From the NCBI GenBank assembly GCA_903896015.1, contig CAITWF010000054.1, positions 1 through 64,000 of the forward strand: a stretch of 64,000 nucleotides of DNA, written 5' to 3'. Each line of letters starts with the position of its first letter. The stretch's first letter is position 1. Positions 14,407 through 24,598 of the stretch are shown here, in pieces. This stretch comes from an uncultured Opitutia bacterium. GTDB lineage: Bacteria; Verrucomicrobiota; Verrucomicrobiia; Opitutales; Opitutaceae. The position numbers were made by a program, and so were the translations under genes. A model generated the notes under the pieces. It searched no databases. It saw only the letters and a program-made list of their open reading frames with translations, and had not been told where the DNA came from.

Positions 14407-14496
14407 AGCGCCACACCGCCGCGCCAGCGGGCCCGGCACACTTCAGTTGCCACTCGTCTTCCGGTGCGCCCAGTTCCTAAAAAACCGGACCACACC

Positions 14497-15546
14497 ATGA
14501 ACCGCGTTCACCTTTCCGATCTGCCGTGGGTCGAGGTCGTTTCCCCCACGAGGAAATTTCATTCGTTTTGCCGCAATCTCTCGATTGCGCTTGGCGGCAC
14601 CCGCAACACCGGCCCGTGGGGCGGCGGGCATCCGTTTGATTTGCAGATTCGCCGATTGCCGCCCGGTGCAGCGGTGTGCCCGTATCACTTTCATTTCGCG
14701 CAGTGGGAGATGTTCGTCGTCGTCGTCGGCACCGGAGCCGTTCGCACGGCCGACGCACGGACCGAGGTGAGGATCGGCGACGTGTTCATCCATCCACCCG
14801 GCGCGGCCCACCAGCTCATCAACTCCGGCGCGGGCGCGCTCGAGGTCCTGATCATCGCAGACAATCCGCCCGTGGACGGCGGCTACTATCCCGACTCACA
14901 CAAATATTACCTGCGGCCACCCGGTCAGGTCTTCCGGATCACGGAGGCCGATTATTTCGACGGGGAGGACTCCCTGCCCGCCAACGGTGACTCAGGCTAC
15001 AAAGTAAATTCTTCGGCACTGCCATCCATCGCGGCGTTTTCACAGCGGATAATCCACTCGGACGCCGTCGCGTGGGAGCGATTCGAATCGCCCAAGAAAA
15101 AATTCCGCGGCTGGAGCAAGGCACTATCTATCGCGCTCGGTGCGAAGCGCAACCCGCCGGCCGGGCCCGGTGGCGACAAGTGCGTCAGCCATGGCGGGCA
15201 TCCCTTCGATCTGGAGCTGCAAAAACTCGCACCCGGCGAGTCGGGCTGCCCGCTCCACTCGCACGCCGCGCAGTGGGAGTTGTATTATTTGTTGAGCGGC
15301 ACCGCGACGGTGCGGGCCGATCTCGCGACGCACACGTTTCACGCTGGCGACGTCGTGCTCCATCCGCCGGGCGAAGCGCACCAAATCACGAATGCTTCGA
15401 CGACGGACGATCTCCTTTTCTACGTCGTGGCCGACAATCCACCCGTCGACTACTGGTACTATCCCGACTCCGACAAGTGGGGCCTGCGTGCGCCGCGAAA
15501 ATTTTTTCGCCTGAACGAAGCCGACTATTGGGACGGCGAGGAGTGA
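14497..15546 (+). CDS. Bicupin protein from internal duplication
   Basis: The 349-residue protein is two tandem copies of one cupin unit (about residues 1-165 and 170-349). Each contains KxF, LSIALG, GGHPFDL, CPxHxHxAQWE, GDVxxHPPGxAHQ, ADNPPVD, YYPDS and EADYxDGE. The histidines of the first cupin motif (HFHFAQWE; HSHAAQWE) and the later HQ supply a likely metal site in both halves. The substrate is unknown. ATG 14497 starts just before the first repeat. The 3' end overlaps the convergent MbnP/MauG-type gene by 22 bp. Confidence 0.85.
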   Translation: MNRVHLSDLPWVEVVSPTRKFHSFCRNLSIALGGTRNTGPWGGGHPFDLQIRRLPPGAAVCPYHFHFAQWEMFVVVVGTGAVRTADARTEVRIGDVFIHPPGAAHQLINSGAGALEVLIIADNPPVDGGYYPDSHKYYLRPPGQVFRITEADYFDGEDSLPANGDSGYKVNSSALPSIAAFSQRIIHSDAVAWERFESPKKKFRGWSKALSIALGAKRNPPAGPGGDKCVSHGGHPFDLELQKLAPGESGCPLHSHAAQWELYYLLSGTATVRADLATHTFHAGDVVLHPPGEAHQITNASTTDDLLFYVVADNPPVDYWYYPDSDKWGLRAPRKFFRLNEADYWDGEE

Positions 15547-17324
15547 GGCCCAGCGCCGTCGCGATCGCCCCGCGGCGGCGGCCGGAGCGATCGCGATCCC
15601 TCAAACCGCGCGTCCGTGAGCGTCCGCAGAAACACCACGAGCGCCCGCTGATCAGCCGCGGGCAGCTCCATGCCCGCGCGCGGATGCTTCGCGAGGTTGG
15701 GATCGAGCGTAGCGTTGCGTACGACGCCGTGGTCGTAGTGCGCGACGACTTCTTCCAGCGTCCTGAAGCGGCCGTCGTGCATGTAGGGCGCCGTCACCGC
15801 GACGTTGCGGAGCGAGGGCGTCTTGAATTTATCCAAGTCGCAGGCGCTGGCGGTGAGTTTCTCTCGGCCACGATCGATGCCGCGCACCGCGAGGCCGTTG
15901 TTCTTGAAGGCGAAATCGCTGAAAAGCGGCCCGCCGTGGCAATGAAAGCAATCCGCGCCGCGCCGACCGCGCGCCGGATCAAATTCGGTCATGAATAGCT
16001 CGAAGCCGCGCTGCTCGTCGGCGGTGAGCGTCGTCTCGCGGCGCAGCGCGCGATCGAAACGCGAATCGGCCGAGACTTGCGCGAGGAGAAATTGTTCGAG
16101 CGCGAGACCGATCCGCTCGGGCGTGATGGCGGGTGTGCCGAATGCCGCGGCAAAATCAGCCCGGATGTGATCGTGCGTGGCGAGGCGCGCGGCGCTCTTG
16201 GCCGCGTCGGCGTGCATTTCGATCGGGTTGGTCATCGCGGCGAGTGCTTGGTCGCGGATGCGCGGCTGGCTGCCGTCCCACGCGAAGGCCGGGTTCCAAG
16301 CGAGGTTTACGAGTGGCTGGGCATTGCGCGCGCCCGGTTTGCCGTCTGCACCGCGGCTGAACGGCACACGATCGCTGAACGCGCGCGCAGGGTCGTGGCA
16401 ATTCGCGCAGCTCTGGGCGCCGTTGCCGGAGAGTTGGGCATCGTGAAATAGTTTTCGGCCGAGCGCGACGCCCTCGACCGTCAACGGATTGTCCGCGGGC
16501 AAAGCGGGCTGCGGCCAGCCGGCGGGGACGGTGAAGGCAAGCGGCGTGGCCGACGCGTTGGCGATCGTTTTCTTCGGCTTCGCCGAGTTGGCCTGCGCGA
16601 ATGCCGGCGCCGCGGTCGGCTTCGCCTCCAGCCAAAACCACGCCCGCTCGACGGCGGCGGCGAGTTGCGGCGCCAGAGTGTCGTTGGACCCCGAGTGCGT
16701 GGTCTCGCTGCCGTCGTCCTCGGCAAGCTTTTGATCGCGGAGGATGCGGGCGACATCAATCGCCAGCGCGATCGTGGTGTCATGCCCGATGCGGAAGTCG
16801 GATCGAAAGCGCATCGTCATCACGCGCGCGTCGGTCGCCAGATGATAGGAGAAACCGCGCTCGGCTCCAGCGGTCGTCCGCCACCGGCCTTCGAGCGCGA
16901 GGAAAACGTAGCCGCCCGACCAGTTCCAGTGCAGGCCGTTGACAAGCGGGTTGAGCGGATGCCCCGCGGGCCAGACGTCGGGCGAGCCGTGATTCGCGAC
17001 CGGCGGCAGTCCAAGTTGAAACTCGATCCCAGCGTAGTCGCCCTCGGGCACTTCGCGCAACGCGACTGAGACTCGGCCCGACTCGGCGTCGATGAAACCA
17101 TATTGGCCGTCCAACCGCACCAGCGATCCGTCGGGGCGACCGAGCGCGACACCCGAGACAATCGCGGCGATACGCGTGACGCGAAGCGATTGATCGCTTT
17201 TATTTCTCACCGGCACCGAAGGGACGGCAAGGGGCGCACCCTGCCACGTGGGGGTGATCGTCAACGTCAACTCCGCCGCGGCGAGGCGCGTGGCGAGGAA
17301 GAGCAGGAGGACAGGGAAACGCAT
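15525..17324 (-). CDS. MbnP-like / MauG-family (MbnH-like) di-haem fusion protein
   Basis: The 599-residue exported protein (signal peptide about 1-17) joins two modules normally encoded as neighbours. Residues about 18-215 resemble the MbnP copper-binding family, with the hallmark GLHWNWSGGYVFLALEGRW at 131-148. After a linker (about 216-275), residues about 276-575 form a MauG/cytochrome c peroxidase-type di-haem domain with haem motifs CANCH (306-310) and CFHCH (459-463). In known MbnPH pairs the di-haem enzyme oxidises a tryptophan of MbnP to kynurenine, making a copper site. Here substrate and enzyme would be in one chain. ATG 17324 directly precedes the signal peptide. It is divergent from the response regulator and shares its regulatory region. 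Confidence 0.87.
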   Translation of the reverse strand: MRFPVLLLFLATRLAAAELTLTITPTWQGAPLAVPSVPVRNKSDQSLRVTRIAAIVSGVALGRPDGSLVRLDGQYGFIDAESGRVSVALREVPEGDYAGIEFQLGLPPVANHGSPDVWPAGHPLNPLVNGLHWNWSGGYVFLALEGRWRTTAGAERGFSYHLATDARVMTMRFRSDFRIGHDTTIALAIDVARILRDQKLAEDDGSETTHSGSNDTLAPQLAAAVERAWFWLEAKPTAAPAFAQANSAKPKKTIANASATPLAFTVPAGWPQPALPADNPLTVEGVALGRKLFHDAQLSGNGAQSCANCHDPARAFSDRVPFSRGADGKPGARNAQPLVNLAWNPAFAWDGSQPRIRDQALAAMTNPIEMHADAAKSAARLATHDHIRADFAAAFGTPAITPERIGLALEQFLLAQVSADSRFDRALRRETTLTADEQRGFELFMTEFDPARGRRGADCFHCHGGPLFSDFAFKNNGLAVRGIDRGREKLTASACDLDKFKTPSLRNVAVTAPYMHDGRFRTLEEVVAHYDHGVVRNATLDPNLAKHPRAGMELPAADQRALVVFLRTLTDARFEGSRSLRPPPRGDRDGAGPHSSPSQ

Positions 17325-17346: not shown

Positions 17347-17400
17347 GTTAAGTACATGTGTGGGACGGCGGGGAGAAATGTTAAGGGCGTGTTAAGCATG
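17347..17400. promoter_or_regulatory. GTTAAG direct repeats, likely response-regulator site
   Basis: GTTAAG occurs at 17347-17352, 17380-17385 and 17391-17396. The last two start 11 bp apart and the first is 33 bp (three times 11) away, the helical spacing expected for OmpR/PhoB-type tandem binding. The block 17380-17400 is nearly identical to 23006-23025 beside the kinase and YHYH genes. Autoregulation plus control of the divergent MbnP/MauG gene is inferred. Confidence 0.6.
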
Positions 17401-17448: not shown

Positions 17449-18186
17449 ATGAACGCCGAAACCATCGCCGCGGGACGCACCCGGTTGCTCATGATCGACG
17501 ATGACAAGAAGCTCTGTCGACTCGTCGCGACCTATCTTGAGCCGCTCGGCTTTGCGGTCGCCGCCGTGCACAGCGGTGCCGAGGGCGTGGAGCGCGCCAC
17601 AGCGACGGGCGCCCCATGGCACGCGATCATCCTCGATGTGATGCTGCCCGGCCTGGATGGCTTCGAGGTGCTGAAAAAAATTCGCGCAAAGAGCGCCGTG
17701 CCGGTCCTCATGCTCACCGCACGCGGAGACGAAATGGACCGGATCGTCGGGCTTGAGGTCGGGGCGGACGACTACCTGCCGAAGACATTCTCCACGCGCG
17801 AACTGCTCGCGCGGCTGCGAGCGGTGTTGCGGCGCAGCGCTCTGAGCGCCACGGCGGAGACAAAACCCGAAACGCCTCCGGCTGAACTCGTCGTCGGCGA
17901 GCTGCGCGTAAATCTCGCTGCGCGTTCCGCCGCGCTCGGCGCGACGCCGCTCCTGCTCACTCCGGTGGAGTTCGATCTGCTTGCGAGTTTAGCGAAAGCG
18001 AAAGGCCGCGTGAAATCGCGCGAGGCGCTGCTCGATGAAATCCGTGATCGAAACTACGATGTCTTCGACCGCTCAATCGACGTGCACATTTCATCGCTGC
18101 GGAAAAACATCGGTGACGATGCAAAGGAACCCCGGTTCATCCGCACCGTGCGTTCGGCGGGCTACCTGATGACGGCGCCGGAGTAA
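17449..18186 (+). CDS. OmpR/PhoB-family response regulator
   Basis: The 245-residue regulator has a receiver domain (about 10-125) with acidic residues in LLMIDDDKK, phospho-acceptor Asp63 in ILDVMLPG, and the switch lysine in DDYLPKTF. A winged-helix DNA-binding domain follows (about 145-243; LLTPVEFDLLASL, then DVHISSLRKNIGD and FIRTVRSAGYLM). ATG 17449 is the first start consistent with the fold. Its cognate kinase is probably the gene at 23123, from which it is separated by the oppositely oriented YHYH-Ig gene. The GTTAAG boxes upstream suggest autoregulation. Confidence 0.93.
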   Translation: MNAETIAAGRTRLLMIDDDKKLCRLVATYLEPLGFAVAAVHSGAEGVERATATGAPWHAIILDVMLPGLDGFEVLKKIRAKSAVPVLMLTARGDEMDRIVGLEVGADDYLPKTFSTRELLARLRAVLRRSALSATAETKPETPPAELVVGELRVNLAARSAALGATPLLLTPVEFDLLASLAKAKGRVKSREALLDEIRDRNYDVFDRSIDVHISSLRKNIGDDAKEPRFIRTVRSAGYLMTAPE

Positions 18187-18204: not shown

Positions 18205-21200
18205 TCACGGCACGACGTAGAGTTCGACGATCACCGTGCCGGTCGTCGCACCTGCGCCGCTCACGATCGCCGTGTAAGCGCCAGCGGGAAGCGCGACGAG
18301 CAACACGGCATCCTTGCTGGCGGAGGGCAACGCAAACGCGCCGACGCGCGCCGACGTGGCCGCAATGTCGGCGGCATTGCTCGCGTCACCCCAGTCGTCG
18401 TTCGCTGCAATCGCCGTGCTGCCCGCGTAGAGCGTGATCTGCGGGTCGGCGAGCGTGCCGGGGACGCCGAACGCCGCGAGGCCGGGGCCGACCGCGCGCA
18501 CGAGCATTTTCACCGTGCCCTCTCCTGCGATGACGAAGCCGGGAATCAGCAAGTCGGCGCCCGTGCCGACAAACGCGCGGGCCGAGGCATTGATGAGCCG
18601 CGCAGACGTGTCGGCGCTCGCCCCGTCGTAAGCCTCGACCAGCACAACGCCGCTCGAGTTGCCGGTACCGTACACCGGGGTCGTGTAGGCGCCCGGCGTG
18701 AGGGTCGTGACGATCGCCGCGTCGCCGCTACCGGCATTGAGCGGAAACGCACCGGCAGCCGTCATCGCGCCCGCGTCGCTCGCGAGCCAGTTGTCATTGC
18801 TGCCGATCACGGTGTTGCCCCACCAGAGCTGCAACTGCGGATCGGCGAGCGCGCTCGTGAGGCCGAAGTTCGCGATGAGCGTCGGGCCGACCGCGCGAAT
18901 AATCAGGCGTTTGCCGGCACCGGAGCCACCGAGAACGAAACCGACGATCGGCGTGCCGGCGTTGCTGCCGATGCGCGTGCGCACGGCGAGATTCACGATG
19001 CCAGCGGCGAGTGTCGCGGCGGGCGACGTCGCCGAAGTCACGGTGAGCGTCGCTGCAGCGCTAGTCACAAACCCAGTGCCGTTCGCAACGGTGCACATGT
19101 AACTGCCGGCATCCGACGCCTGCGCGCTCGCGATCGAAAACTTTGCGGCGGTGGCTCCGGTCATCGCGGCGGAATTTTTATACCACTGGTAACCCAACGG
19201 GGCCGCGCCGGTGGCGACCACACTGAACGTGACGCCAGCGCCCGCCACGACCGACACGCTAGAGGGCTGCGCGGTGATCGAGGGAGGCGTGCTCGCGCTC
19301 GTGATCGTCAGGGTCGCGGCATTGCTGGTCGCGCTGCCGGCATTGTTGCTAACGATGCACGTGTAGCTGCCCGCGTCCGCTGGTTGCGCGCTCGCGACGA
19401 TGAAGCTCACGCTCGTGGCACCGGTGAGCGCGGCGACGCCCTTATACCACTGGTAGCTCAGAGGTGCGGAGCCGCTCGCCACGATGACGAACGTCGCGCT
19501 GCCGCCCGCCGTGATGCTCGCACTCGTCGGCTGTGTCGTGATGACGGGGGCCGCCGGGCTGCTAGACACGGCGAGCACCCCGGCATTGCTCGTCGCGGAG
19601 CCGGCACTGTTGGTCACGGTGCACGAGAAATTTCCGGCGTCAGTCGTTTGCGCGGCCGCAATCGTGTACGTCGCGCCGGTCGCGCCGGCCATCGCCGCGC
19701 CGTTTTTCTGCCATTGGTAATTTAACGGTGCGGTGCCGTTGGCCACGACGGCAAACGTCACGCTCGCTCCCGTCGTGACCGTCGCGTTCACCGGCTGCGT
19801 GGCGATGCTTGGCGCCACGGTGGCGCTCGACACCGCGAGGTTCGCCCCTGCGCTCGTCGCGCTGCCGGCGCGGTTGGTGACGACACACACATAGGTGCCG
19901 ACATCCGCCGCCTGCGCGCTCACGATCGTGTAGCTCGCATTCGTCGCGCCGCCAATCGCTGCGCCGTTCTTCTGCCACTGGTAGCCCAGCGGTACCGTGC
20001 CGCTCGCCGTGACCGTGAATGTGGCGTTGCCACCAGCCGTCACCGTAGCGTTTGCCGGCTGGGTCATAATCGCCGGCGCCGTCGCGGGGGTAGTGACCGT
20101 GAGCGTGGCGGCGTCGCTGGTGGCGGAGCCGACACTGTTCGTCACCACGCACAAGTAGCTGCCCGCATCAGCCGCCTGCACGCCGGTGAGCGCGTAGCTC
20201 GCGGCCGTGGCGCCGCCAATCGCCGCCACGCCTTTATACCACTGGTAAGCGAGCGGCGCGGTGCCGTTGGCGACCACCGTGAAGACCACGCCGCCGCCCA
20301 CCGTCACCGTCGTGCTTGCAGGTTGTGTGGCGATGCCCGGCGCGACAGCCGCGGCGCTCACGGTGAGCGTCGCAGCATTCGTGCCGGTGGAACCGGCGCT
20401 GTTACTGACGACGCAAACGTAGCTGCCCGCATCGGCGCTCTGCGCACTCGCGATCGCGTATGTGGTCGCGGTGGCGCCTGAAATCGCGGCGGAGTTTTTA
20501 TACCATTGATAACTCAGTGGCGCCGTCCCGCTCGCGACGACGGTGAACGTCGCCGCGCTGCCCGCAGTCACGGTCGCGCTAGCGGGCTGCATCGTGATGC
20601 CGGGCAGGGTTGCTGCCGGATTGACGGTAAGCGTGGCGACGATGCTAGTCGCGGTGCCGGCACTGTTGGTGACCACGCAAGTATAGCTGCCGGCGTCGGC
20701 GGTCTGCGCGCTGGAGAGGGTATAGCTCGCGTTCGTGGCACCGCTGATGGCGACACCGCCTTTTTGCCACTGATAAATCAGTGGGGCGGTGCCGCTCGCC
20801 ACCAGTGTGAATGTGACGCTCGCGCCCGCGGTCACGGTCGCGCCCGCCGGCTGCGTGGCGATCGATGGCGCACTCGCGGCGGCGTTGACCGTGAGCGTCA
20901 CGGCGTTGCTCGTGACAGAGCCGGCGCTGTTCACGATGGCGACGGAATAGCTGCCGGAGTCGGAAACATGCGTCGTCGCGAGAGTATAGGCTGCGCTCGT
21001 CGCACCGCCGATCGCGCTGCCGCCTTTATACCACTGGTAACTCAGCGGTGCCGTGCCGCTCGCGACCACGGTGAACGTGACACTCGCGCCCGAGGTCACG
21101 GTTGCGGCCGTCGGCTGCGTGGAGATTGCAGGCGCAGTGGTGGCCGCGTTGATCGTGAGGACCGCGGCGTTGCTCGTGGTGGAGCCGACGGCGTTGGTCA

Positions 21201-22971
21201 CCGTAACCGTGTAGCTGCCCGCATCAGCGGATTGTATGCTCGCGATCGTGTAGCTCGCGCTCGTCGCGCCGGAAATCGCGGAGCCGGCCTTCTTCCATTG
21301 GTAACTGAGCGTGCCGGTGCCGCTCGCCGCGACCGTAAACGTCACGCCCGTGCCCGCCGTAACGGTCGCACTCACAGGTTGCGTGGTAATCGTCGGCGCG
21401 GTGGCCGCATTGCCGAACAGGACGGTCGCGGTCTTGCCGACCGGCGTGCCGTAGGTACCGCCGGAATCGTAGGTGGCGAGTGCCGTGAGCGTGACGCGAT
21501 AGTAATTCGTGCTCGTTGTCGCGGTGTAGCTCGTCGTGAGCCCGCCACTGGTCACTGTCGAAGAGAGCGTTGTGAACGTGACGTTGTCGGCGGAGGATTC
21601 GACCTTGTAGGTCGCGCCCTCGGCAGAGTTCCACAAGAGGGCGACATTGCTGGCTGACGCTGCGGCGGTGACCGAGATCGCAGTCGCGGGACCGGCGTCG
21701 GAGTATTCGGCGACGGACTCGCTGATGCTGTTGACTGTACCGGTGCCGACCGCGGCTGAGCCAAAATATTCCTGATTGATTACGTCGGGAAACACCGTGT
21801 TGCCGCTTGAATCGATGCACACAAAGTAGGCGTAGGTGCCGCCGGGATATTCGGGAGTGACGCAGTAGCGGACGTTCTGCCGGTTGAGATCGAAGTCGAC
21901 GCCCTGCGTTTTCCCAAAGTCGCCCAGATATTCATAGTCCTCGGCAAACGTGCCGACGACGCAGGTCTTGTTCACCGGACCGAGGGCATAGGTCGCCGTC
22001 GTGCTGGGGCCGTATTGGCTCGAGGTGAGCGTCTGACTTTTGCCCTGCACGCTCGCGGCCCACACCGGGAGCTTCACGCGGCCGGTGACAGCGAGATCGT
22101 CCGTGCCGTAGGTGCCGGCGCCGCTGCTGTCGCGCTTCACGAAGCCGCTCACCATGCGGCGAATCCCGCTCGTGGCGTCGGCCGCCGTCGCATAACCGTA
22201 GGGCCCGTAAATCGGCAGGCCGTCGTTGGCCCAGCCGATGATCGGCGAATGCTTCGTCGGCGTGCCCGCTTCGCCGTAGCTCTTCGAAGCGGAGTCGTAG
22301 GTGACATTGTCGCCGAGTTGGTAGCGGAGCGCCTTCGGATTGATGTGATTGTGGTAGGCGCCGGTGTTCGGCTGGTGACCGTTGGCCGGATCGAAGTTAA
22401 ACGTCTCCGCGACGCCCGCGAGGCGGTTCCAGACTCCATCGCCGCTCATCGAAATGGAAGCGACGCTGGCGGTGGAGCTGCTGTTCGCGTACGACTGCGC
22501 GTCGCCGTTTTCCCAGACGAACACGCCATTCACGAGCACGCCGCCGTTGCCGTGGCTGAGCTGCTTCGTCGTGGGGATCGATGGGTTGCGCGGGATGCGG
22601 TGGATCGCTGCGCGATTCGCCGGCCAAGAGGTGTAGGTCTGGCCGTTCGGTGTCAGCCAGTTTCCCATCGTGTAACTCGGGTAACCGGTCGTGTAGATAT
22701 AAACATAGTTGATCGAGTAGGCGACGCGCTGGATGTCGGAGTAGGCCGCCGTGGCTTGGCCCCCACCACCGTTCGTGAGACCGGACCGCGGCCACGTGCT
22801 GACGGCGTTGCCGGAGGTTTTGTCGGAGGTCGTCTCGTAGACGCGCGCGTATTTCGCGGAGTTCGCCGTGAGCCAGCTCGTGATACGCGGATCGGTGGCC
22901 TGGGCGAACGCGCGGGCTGCGAGCGCACACAGCAAGAGAAGACTCAGAGCAAGCCGGAGAAAATGGTTCAT
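18205..22971 (-). CDS. Giant exported YHYH-domain protein with nine Ig-like repeats
   Basis: The 1588-residue product starts with a signal peptide (about 1-24). A YHYH domain follows (about 90-440) containing GAYHNHINPKAL (YHNH at 206-209) and SPIIGWANDGLPIYGPYGY. A fibronectin-III-like stretch precedes nine consecutive 88-residue Ig-like repeats (each with ITxQPxxxTV, YQWxKxGxAI and ADAGSYxCxVxN). Two copies of a C-terminal module of about 130 residues (coded 18208-18995) end in ELYVVP. The same tandem module ends the GH28 and giant CE8 proteins here. The protein is probably a long surface or secreted adhesin-like stalk. It lies between the response-regulator and kinase genes, divergent from the latter. 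YHYH proteins have unknown function; a metal-binding role is only suggested by the histidines. Confidence 0.88.
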   Translation of the reverse strand: MNHFLRLALSLLLLCALAARAFAQATDPRITSWLTANSAKYARVYETTSDKTSGNAVSTWPRSGLTNGGGGQATAAYSDIQRVAYSINYVYIYTTGYPSYTMGNWLTPNGQTYTSWPANRAAIHRIPRNPSIPTTKQLSHGNGGVLVNGVFVWENGDAQSYANSSSTASVASISMSGDGVWNRLAGVAETFNFDPANGHQPNTGAYHNHINPKALRYQLGDNVTYDSASKSYGEAGTPTKHSPIIGWANDGLPIYGPYGYATAADATSGIRRMVSGFVKRDSSGAGTYGTDDLAVTGRVKLPVWAASVQGKSQTLTSSQYGPSTTATYALGPVNKTCVVGTFAEDYEYLGDFGKTQGVDFDLNRQNVRYCVTPEYPGGTYAYFVCIDSSGNTVFPDVINQEYFGSAAVGTGTVNSISESVAEYSDAGPATAISVTAAASASNVALLWNSAEGATYKVESSADNVTFTTLSSTVTSGGLTTSYTATTSTNYYRVTLTALATYDSGGTYGTPVGKTATVLFGNAATAPTITTQPVSATVTAGTGVTFTVAASGTGTLSYQWKKAGSAISGATSASYTIASIQSADAGSYTVTVTNAVGSTTSNAAVLTINAATTAPAISTQPTAATVTSGASVTFTVVASGTAPLSYQWYKGGSAIGGATSAAYTLATTHVSDSGSYSVAIVNSAGSVTSNAVTLTVNAAASAPSIATQPAGATVTAGASVTFTLVASGTAPLIYQWQKGGVAISGATNASYTLSSAQTADAGSYTCVVTNSAGTATSIVATLTVNPAATLPGITMQPASATVTAGSAATFTVVASGTAPLSYQWYKNSAAISGATATTYAIASAQSADAGSYVCVVSNSAGSTGTNAATLTVSAAAVAPGIATQPASTTVTVGGGVVFTVVANGTAPLAYQWYKGVAAIGGATAASYALTGVQAADAGSYLCVVTNSVGSATSDAATLTVTTPATAPAIMTQPANATVTAGGNATFTVTASGTVPLGYQWQKNGAAIGGATNASYTIVSAQAADVGTYVCVVTNRAGSATSAGANLAVSSATVAPSIATQPVNATVTTGASVTFAVVANGTAPLNYQWQKNGAAMAGATGATYTIAAAQTTDAGNFSCTVTNSAGSATSNAGVLAVSSSPAAPVITTQPTSASITAGGSATFVIVASGSAPLSYQWYKGVAALTGATSVSFIVASAQPADAGSYTCIVSNNAGSATSNAATLTITSASTPPSITAQPSSVSVVAGAGVTFSVVATGAAPLGYQWYKNSAAMTGATAAKFSIASAQASDAGSYMCTVANGTGFVTSAAATLTVTSATSPAATLAAGIVNLAVRTRIGSNAGTPIVGFVLGGSGAGKRLIIRAVGPTLIANFGLTSALADPQLQLWWGNTVIGSNDNWLASDAGAMTAAGAFPLNAGSGDAAIVTTLTPGAYTTPVYGTGNSSGVVLVEAYDGASADTSARLINASARAFVGTGADLLIPGFVIAGEGTVKMLVRAVGPGLAAFGVPGTLADPQITLYAGSTAIAANDDWGDASNAADIAATSARVGAFALPSASKDAVLLVALPAGAYTAIVSGAGATTGTVIVELYVVP
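19029..21405 (-). repeat. Nine tandem 264-bp Ig-coding repeats
   Basis: Nine in-frame units of 88 codons, with no length variation, encode the Ig-like domains of the YHYH protein. Several keep long near-identical DNA blocks around the YQWYK segment, as expected from duplication and recombination. The array is a likely site of copy-number variation and of assembly error. Confidence 0.85.
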
Positions 22972-23005: not shown

Positions 23006-23043
23006 GTTAAGCGCGTGTGAGCATGACCGGCGATTTTGTTAAG
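23006..23043. promoter_or_regulatory. Second GTTAAG box, between YHYH and kinase genes
   Basis: GTTAAG occurs at 23006-23011 and 23038-23043. The 20-nt block 23006-23025 reads GTTAAG, then C, then GCGTGT, then G, then AGCATG. It matches 17380-17400 except for one substitution and one small gap. It lies 35 bp upstream of the YHYH start and about 80 bp upstream of the kinase start, so it can serve both. A response-regulator operator is inferred. Confidence 0.6.
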
Positions 23044-23122
23044 CCGGCGTAAACGTTCGGGATTTTCCGCACGAACTCGCGTATAGTTGATGCACGTCGC
23101 CCACCGTCGTTGCGGTCGCCTG

Positions 23123-24598
23123 ATGAAAATTTCCTTTCCCCTGTCACTGAAAATTTTGCTCTGGCTGCTGCTCAACCTTTTGCTGCTCGGCGCCGTCGGC
23201 GTGGGCTTTCTCCTCGGCCACGGCGGGCTCGGCTGGAACGCCCTGATGGCCGGCGCCGCCGGCGATCATGTGCAGGCGATCGGCGACGCGCTCGTGGGCG
23301 AACTCAACGGCTCGCCACCCGCGGCACGCGATGCGGCCCTCACCCGCGCGGGCCGTGAGCACGGCGTGGAGTTTTATCTCTTCAGCAACCGCGGCGCGCA
23401 ACTGGCCGGCGAACGCGTCGAGTTGCCGCCGACGGCGCGCGCGCAGCTCGTGCCGCCCGCGCCGCGCGACGACGCAGCAGAGAGCCCGCCGAGCCCGCGC
23501 GCGCTCAGCGGACCGCCCGCCGGGACACGCCCGCCACCCACTGAGCCCCCCGCCCTCGCCCAGGTCCGTGGCCGCGGCCGCTTCTTGCTCACCGATCACG
23601 GCTATTGGATTGGGATGCGCGTGCCGTTCACGCCGGACGAATACGATCCCCGCGTGCCAGCGACCCTCTTCGTTCACCCAGCATCGAGCTGGGGGCTGTT
23701 GCGCTTGCTCGACGTGCAACCGTGGCTCCTCGCCGCCATCGGGGTGCTCGTGTTTTCCATCCTCTTCTGGCTGCCCTTCGTCCGCGGGATCACGCGCTCG
23801 CTGGGCCAGCTCACGGCCGCCACCGGAAAGATCGCCGAAGGTGATTTCCACACGCGCGTATCCGCCACGCGCCGCGACGAGCTCGGCCAATTGGGCGACT
23901 CCGTCAATCAGATGGCCGGACGCCTCGACACGCTCGTCAATGGCCAGAAGCGTTTCCTCGCCGACGTCGCGCACGAACTCGGTTCACCCATCGCGCGCCT
24001 GCAGGTCGCAGTCGAAATCCTTGAGTCGCGCGCCAGCGATCCGGCACTCCACGTCCAGATCGCCGATGTGCGCGAGGAGGTGCAGCAGATGAGCGCGCTC
24101 GTCAACGAACTGCTCGCTTTCACCCAAGCCGGCCTCCGCCCGCGTGCCGCCGAACTTGCTCCCGTCGAACTTGTGCCGCTCGTCGCCCAAGCCGTCGCAC
24201 GCGAAGGCGCGGGTGACCACGTTGCCATCGGAATTCCCTCCGGTCTCGCCGCGCACGCTGACCAGCCGCTTCTCGCACGCGCCGTTGGCAACCTCATCCG
24301 CAATGCGCTCCGATACTCCGGCGCCAACACCCCGATCACGGTCACTGCGCACCGCGGCGACGATCGCGTCGTCCTCACGGTGGCCGACGAAGGTCCGGGC
24401 GTGCCCGCCGAAACCCTCGCACGGCTCGGAGAACCTTTTTACCGCCCTGAAGCCGCGCGCACGCGCGAGACCGGCGGCACCGGTCTTGGCCTCGCGATCG
24501 TGCGTTCGGCCGTCGCAGCGTGCGGCGGGGAAGTTCGTTTTTCGAATCGCACGCCTCACGGCTTCTGCGTCGAGATCACCTTGTGCGCCGCCGACTGA
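23123..24598 (+). CDS. Sensor histidine kinase (CpxA/BaeS-like)
   Basis: The 491-residue kinase has a membrane helix at about 7-28 and a periplasmic sensor of about 170 residues with a proline-rich stretch. A second helix lies at about 205-225, followed by HAMP (about 226-275). HisKA carries the phospho-acceptor His284 in DVAHELGSPIARLQ. The HATPase domain has NLIRNALRYSG, DEGPGVP, EPFYRPE and GGTGLGLAIVRS. ATG 23123 precedes the first helix; the in-frame ATG 23087 is less likely. It is the probable partner of the response regulator at 17449. It has no downstream partner, since lutC is convergent. Confidence 0.92.
   Translation: MKISFPLSLKILLWLLLNLLLLGAVGVGFLLGHGGLGWNALMAGAAGDHVQAIGDALVGELNGSPPAARDAALTRAGREHGVEFYLFSNRGAQLAGERVELPPTARAQLVPPAPRDDAAESPPSPRALSGPPAGTRPPPTEPPALAQVRGRGRFLLTDHGYWIGMRVPFTPDEYDPRVPATLFVHPASSWGLLRLLDVQPWLLAAIGVLVFSILFWLPFVRGITRSLGQLTAATGKIAEGDFHTRVSATRRDELGQLGDSVNQMAGRLDTLVNGQKRFLADVAHELGSPIARLQVAVEILESRASDPALHVQIADVREEVQQMSALVNELLAFTQAGLRPRAAELAPVELVPLVAQAVAREGAGDHVAIGIPSGLAAHADQPLLARAVGNLIRNALRYSGANTPITVTAHRGDDRVVLTVADEGPGVPAETLARLGEPFYRPEAARTRETGGTGLGLAIVRSAVAACGGEVRFSNRTPHGFCVEITLCAAD

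Follow-up and report, generated by a model that had tools for sequence, protein, structure and literature searches.

The closest described relatives of the protein analysed here are MbnP and its di-haem partner MbnH. MbnH reportedly turns the first tryptophan (W) of a WxW motif in MbnP into kynurenine, and the Cu(I) of MbnP is said to be held by a histidine (H), a methionine (M) and solvent. The MbnP/MbnH pair as such is already known (PMC3621798). Methanotrophs possess similar combinations of a copper protein with a di-haem enzyme, CorA/CorB and MopE/SACCP; these are encoded by separate genes, and CorA and MopE are repressed by copper. Crystallography of CorA revealed Cu(I) bound by kynurenine and two histidines (PMC3912023), with a W-x-H motif contributing Kyn62 and His64. 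In the MauG/pre-methylamine dehydrogenase system a di-haem enzyme likewise oxidises a protein tryptophan, but enzyme and substrate are separate and the product is tryptophylquinone, not kynurenine.

The window, a stretch of 64,000 nucleotides from an uncultured Opitutia bacterium (contig CAITWF010000054.1 of assembly GCA_903896015.1), encodes both partners in a single gene. According to the ORF list, Pfam and the sequence, the coding sequence (15525..17324, minus strand) is complete, with an ATG at 17324, a stop at 15525 and one intact frame for a precursor of 599 aa. A sequence-only reading had proposed, at exactly these positions, an MbnP-type domain followed by a di-haem MauG-family domain with two CxxCH motifs in one polypeptide. 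Its coordinates and both CxxCH motifs were right, and HMM searches, fold comparison and residue motifs bear out the architecture. As that reading had expected of an HMM search, the N-terminus matches MbnP (PF20243; precursor residues 17-203, E 2e-30, 106.5 bits against a Pfam cut-off of 27) and the C-terminal part matches CCP_MauG (PF03150; precursor residues 284-431, E 3e-47, 161.6 bits against a cut-off of 25.6). The gene is the sole match to PF20243 and the sole match to PF03150 in its source genome (4.96 Mb, 98% complete). The best-scoring NCBIfam family was TIGR04039 (MbnH family di-haem enzyme) with 216 bits, below its equivalog cut-off of 362.85; TIGR04052 (MbnP_like_WxW) reached 46 bits on the N-terminus, below its cut-off of 140. 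The fusion has both folds and the gene order in common with the MbnP/MbnH pair (TIGR04052/TIGR04039; Methylosinus trichosporium MbnP 7l6g, MbnH-type enzyme 6e1c), but differs from it in being one polypeptide that stays below both equivalog cut-offs.

An apparent signal peptide, MRFPVLLLFLATRLAAA with EL following (17277..17324, minus strand), was read by eye from the sequence. Residue numbers given below are those of the mature protein, residue 1 of our alignment A3 corresponding to position 17276. The MbnP domain covers residues 1-221 (16614..17276, minus strand; PF20243 and structure match to 7l6g) and the MbnH/MauG-like di-haem domain residues about 251-561 (15594..16526, minus strand; PF03150, TIGR04039 and structure match to 6e1c). 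They are joined by a variable linker of low confidence (16527..16613, minus strand; pLDDT 60-67 around residues 221-240), whose length over residues 221-255 ranges from 20 to 66 aa among fusions. An AlphaFold2 model built from 105 fusions reached a mean pLDDT of 91.4 and a pTM of 0.89, superseding a run with 14 sequences (pTM 0.59). Residues 1-218 of this model matched the MbnP crystal structure 7l6g (Z 17.8, 206 residues, 2.9 A, 18% identity), and residues 245-561 matched the MbnH crystal structure 6e1c (Z 34.1, 303 residues, 1.9 A, 38% identity), followed by MauG and bacterial peroxidases as the next fold matches. Both folds of the fusion are thus confidently predicted. Several of the peroxidase structure alignments start at model residues 115-119, the WxW loop, an indirect hint that the loop is packed against the di-haem domain in the model.

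A search for further examples revealed both Pfam domains in one chain in all 40 diverse homologues scanned. PF20243 was detected in 13 of 95 related genomes, every match lying in a frame of about 580-900 aa with two CxxCH motifs, and in 22 of 388 Verrucomicrobiota genomes, where the frames were long and of fused size with the exception of G189 and L111. Neither of these two was accepted as an unfused MbnP: G189 consists of two overlapping frames and is probably a frameshift, and in L111 a truncated MbnP fragment precedes transposase-like frames, while a YHYH gene (see below) is still present upstream. With the N-terminal domain as query, a scan of 84,980 species genomes yielded 309 relatives; among the best 80 of these, 79 loci are fused and the 80th is cut by a contig end. 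Verrucomicrobiota account for most of these; a few are Planctomycetota and one belongs to Armatimonadota (Fimbriimonadia). The family is rare in the latter two phyla (1/294 and 1/151 genomes, respectively), each positive being the genome on which the search was centred. Because many independent genomes carry the fused frame, an assembly chimaera, a frameshift artefact or chance could be ruled out, and the joining of MbnP and MauG/MbnH domains in one exported polypeptide is confirmed. Beyond what the sequence-only reading had claimed, the fused frame is the rule for MbnP of Verrucomicrobiota, almost every one found there having it, and the few from Planctomycetota and Armatimonadota are fused as well. 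Across the fusions, the identities of the MbnP domain and of the di-haem domain are correlated (r 0.83). A FastTree analysis placed all fusions in one clan with no separate homologues inside, at moderate support (0.73) and on biased sampling; the phyla surveyed systematically for fusions were Verrucomicrobiota, Planctomycetota and Armatimonadota.

Separate genes, with the di-haem gene immediately after mbnP, were found in plasmid records of Paracoccus, Pseudoalteromonas, Methylocystis, Trichormus and Deinococcus radiodurans, so that the two-gene form occurs in plasmid-borne relatives of Pseudomonadota, Cyanobacteriota and Deinococcota. Since these separate homologues are adjacent in the order mbnP-then-mbnH, the fusion preserves the gene order. 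Two of the separate pairs stand beside copper genes, those of Paracoccus (PCuAC, SCO) and Deinococcus (CopC, CopD). On plasmids, three MbnH-like di-haem enzymes (L117:6702-7871, L121:4877-6028, L125:2423-3577) are annotated as 'methanobactin export MATE transporter MbnM'. This label is apparently a naming error that has been propagated; the MbnH model gives the L117 protein 441 bits. Plasmids of Pseudoalteromonas and Diaphorobacter also encode 'choice-of-anchor' surface proteins (L118:1414-4110, L125:1-1170) in the vicinity of separate MbnP/MbnH or MbnH genes.

The WxW motif of the MbnP half, W117-N-W119 (16920..16928, minus strand), aligns with the WNW of MbnP, and its first tryptophan, W117 (16926-16928), is predicted to be the one converted to kynurenine. 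W117 is present in 107/107 full-length fusions and W119 in 106/107. These counts are to be read with the way the sequences were collected: alignment A3 was built with the motif filter [HY]WxW, and one of the two patterns in the genome-contig scan also contains WxW. Two full-length fusions outside the filter were read separately, and both keep the first tryptophan: L031 has the motif LRWDW, and L110 has LHWDPQQGY, with WxP instead of WxW. The Pfam HMM, used without any motif pattern, retrieved 31 full-length fusions, and W117 is kept in each. The sequence-only reading had depended on a conserved tryptophan in this domain, and the one modified in MbnP proved invariant in the fusions. The L110 fusion offers a natural test of the need for the second tryptophan.

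Two histidines of the MbnP half are predicted copper ligands, and both were present in all 107 full-length fusions read, as were W117 and tyrosine (Y) 514 of the di-haem half. H145 (16842..16844, minus strand) is invariant and aligns with the invariant histidine of separate MbnPs. H194 (16695..16697, minus strand), the predicted second ligand, lies in the sequence alignment at the position of the MbnP methionine (GCMS); invariant in fusions, it is aligned with the invariant methionine of four separate MbnPs of the four-Cys type. Its assignment as the replacement of methionine is a prediction from an alignment in a divergent region. If this invariant histidine really takes the place of the methionine ligand of MbnP, a site of two histidines and kynurenine is predicted, similar to CorA/MopE. 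On this prediction the copper site would have other ligands than that of MbnP, a point that the sequence-only reading had not raised, and the residues suggest the combination seen in the Cu(I) site of CorA (PMC3912023). The motif itself differs, WxW in the fusion as against W-x-H in CorA, and the predicted histidine ligands of the fusion lie elsewhere. Compared with MbnP, the fusion also has a shorter MbnP domain without the four-Cys pattern.

The di-haem half contains the haem-binding motifs CANCH (residues 290-294; 16395..16409, minus strand) and CFHCH (residues 443-447; 15936..15950, minus strand), both invariant; together with HWNW they are all found in the window protein. As a check, the alignment with Paracoccus MauG recovered H35, W93, Q103, P107, E113, W199, H205 and Y294 at the known MauG positions. 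Equivalents of both proximal histidines (H35, H205) and of W93 (W327), Q103 (Q343), E113 (E353) and Y294 (Y514) are present in the fusion. W327 (16296..16298, minus strand), corresponding to the inter-haem Trp93, and Y514 (15735..15737, minus strand), corresponding to Tyr294, the axial ligand of the six-coordinate haem, are both invariant. A tyrosine ligand in place of the methionine of peroxidases identifies the domain as a MauG/MbnH-type enzyme, and the WxW motif, the conserved histidine and the MauG-type haem environment are common to the fusion and the MbnP/MbnH pair. Unlike MauG, fusions have alanine or glycine instead of the hopping Trp199, which separate MbnHs also lack. MauG Pro107 is replaced by alanine in the window protein and in 33/105 fusions. 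The di-haem domain additionally contains invariant residues specific to fusions, e.g. K530 and H531.

The fusion gene is accompanied by three further genes. Its divergent neighbour encodes an OmpR-family response regulator (17449..18186, plus strand; Response_reg and Trans_reg_C). This is followed by the gene for a 1588-aa YHYH-domain protein (PF14240, YHNH variant; 18205..22971, minus strand), the upstream partner, conserved beside fusions throughout Verrucomicrobiota, which has nine Ig-like repeats with a 264-nt period, and by a divergent gene for a sensor histidine kinase (23123..24598, plus strand), presumed to be the cognate of the regulator. We know of no established function for PF14240. 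Upstream flanks of 5.5 kb or more were available for 58 loci; 39 of them have a YHYH gene upstream of the fusion and on its strand, and 17 have YHYH, regulator and kinase together. Where the regulator does not lie between, the gap from YHYH to fusion is often below 150 nt and operon-like. The long YHYH subtype was found in 10/13 MbnP-positive genomes and in 1/82 others of the 95 relatives (Fisher p 3e-10, ignoring relatedness). In a phage study, the YHYH domain was predicted to bind Zn2+ through conserved histidine and aspartate residues and to be a possible hydrolase (PMC7824862).

Both divergent promoters contain operator-like direct repeats that are unique in the 4.96-Mb genome: CTTAAC-N5-CTTAAC between fusion and regulator (17380..17396, minus strand) and GTTTAC-N5-CTTAAC between YHYH and kinase (23038..23054, minus strand). 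Direct repeats with an 11-bp period are typical of OmpR-family sites. With at most one mismatch, CTTAAC-N5-CTTAAC occurs at the same place in 14/21 regulator-linked Opitutaceae loci, compared with none in shuffled controls, these sequences being related and non-independent. In 15/21 loci, the variant (A/G)TTTAC-N5-CTTAAC is located within or close to the intergenic region that separates YHYH and kinase. Unique repeats at both promoters, kept in relatives, argue for one dedicated regulon of fusion, YHYH, regulator and kinase. In this tie to a YHYH protein and a two-component system, the fusion differs from the MbnP/MbnH pair; no mbnA, mbnB or mbnC was noticed on reading the window ORFs at about 12-34 kb, and no copper genes were recognised in the immediate neighbourhood of the fusion gene.

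Taken together, the fusion is probably a self-maturing extracytoplasmic copper-binding protein whose di-haem domain would make its own copper site. Once the protein is exported and carries two c-type haems, the MauG/MbnH-like domain would use peroxide (or O2 and electrons) via a high-valent di-haem state, stabilised by the tyrosine ligand and the inter-haem tryptophan, and would convert W117 to kynurenine by oxidation, either in the attached MbnP domain or in that of a neighbouring molecule. The kynurenine would complete a mononuclear Cu(I) site with H145 and H194, and the fusion would set the ratio of maturase to substrate at 1:1. The mature protein may then handle copper at the periplasm or surface with the co-regulated YHYH protein, under control of the dedicated OmpR-type two-component system with copper as the signal. 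The analysis establishes the fusion, the conserved motifs, the gene module and the unique repeats shared by its promoters, and predicts both folds with confidence; from these we infer the kynurenine formation, the catalysis in cis (or within an oligomer), the copper binding and the role of copper as signal. Points against this reading are the scores below both equivalog cut-offs, the missing equivalent of Trp199, the alanine at the position of Pro107 and the failure to recognise copper genes close to the window gene.

The main rival is a copper-di-haem redox enzyme, in which electrons pass repeatedly between the finished copper site and the haems, and the haems do not act just once as a maturase, for example for peroxide-dependent Cu(I) oxidation or for peroxide detoxification with copper as electron relay. 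A full catalytic domain bound to each substrate molecule would be costly if used once, and the confidently predicted interdomain placement (pTM 0.89) and the fusion-specific invariant K530 and H531 would also suit such an enzyme. However, the axial ligand is tyrosine and not the methionine of classical peroxidases, the matched residues are all those of maturases and there is no sign of turnover; we consider this explanation unlikely. Somewhat less likely still, the di-haem domain could mainly modify the YHYH partner or another exported protein, with the MbnP domain serving as copper sensor or for docking. The upstream position of the YHYH gene on the same strand in 39/58 loci, often within 150 nt, its co-occurrence with MbnP across genomes (p 3e-10) and its sharing of the regulator's repeat are in line with this. 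Yet about one third of the loci have no nearby YHYH gene, and modification of the MbnP domain itself would account for the invariance of the first tryptophan of WxW and of both predicted histidine ligands. The protein could also be a plain di-haem cytochrome c peroxidase whose N-terminal domain is incidental; its membership of the CCP_MauG superfamily would agree with this, but we regard it as very improbable: tyrosine replaces the methionine ligand, the best fold match is MbnH and not CCP, and the N-terminal domain is structurally MbnP with the functional tryptophan kept in every fusion.

A report of an MbnP-MbnH fusion was not found in the literature searched, of which coverage was partial; the fused architecture is presumably already contained in domain databases, unremarked. 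New beside the known pair are the fusion, the change from methionine to histidine, the lost cysteines and the module with YHYH protein and two-component system. If the fusion is self-maturing, as we think probable, a two-protein reaction becomes one purifiable polypeptide, in which kynurenine formation and long-range tryptophan oxidation could be followed in a single turnover. Probable kynurenine-copper chemistry would be placed well outside the methanotrophs, and the widespread, uncharacterised YHYH domain would be tied to probable copper handling. There is also a small chance that the single chain, having built its kynurenine-copper centre, employs the copper and both haems jointly for redox work on, or together with, the co-regulated YHYH protein; if true, this would represent a novel type of extracytoplasmic copper system that has Verrucomicrobiota as its centre and a two-component regulator of its own.

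Convergent with the fusion gene, a gene for a duplicated-cupin protein (14464-15546, plus strand) overlaps its 3' end by 22 bp. A cupin relative lies downstream of the fusion on the opposite strand in five other loci.
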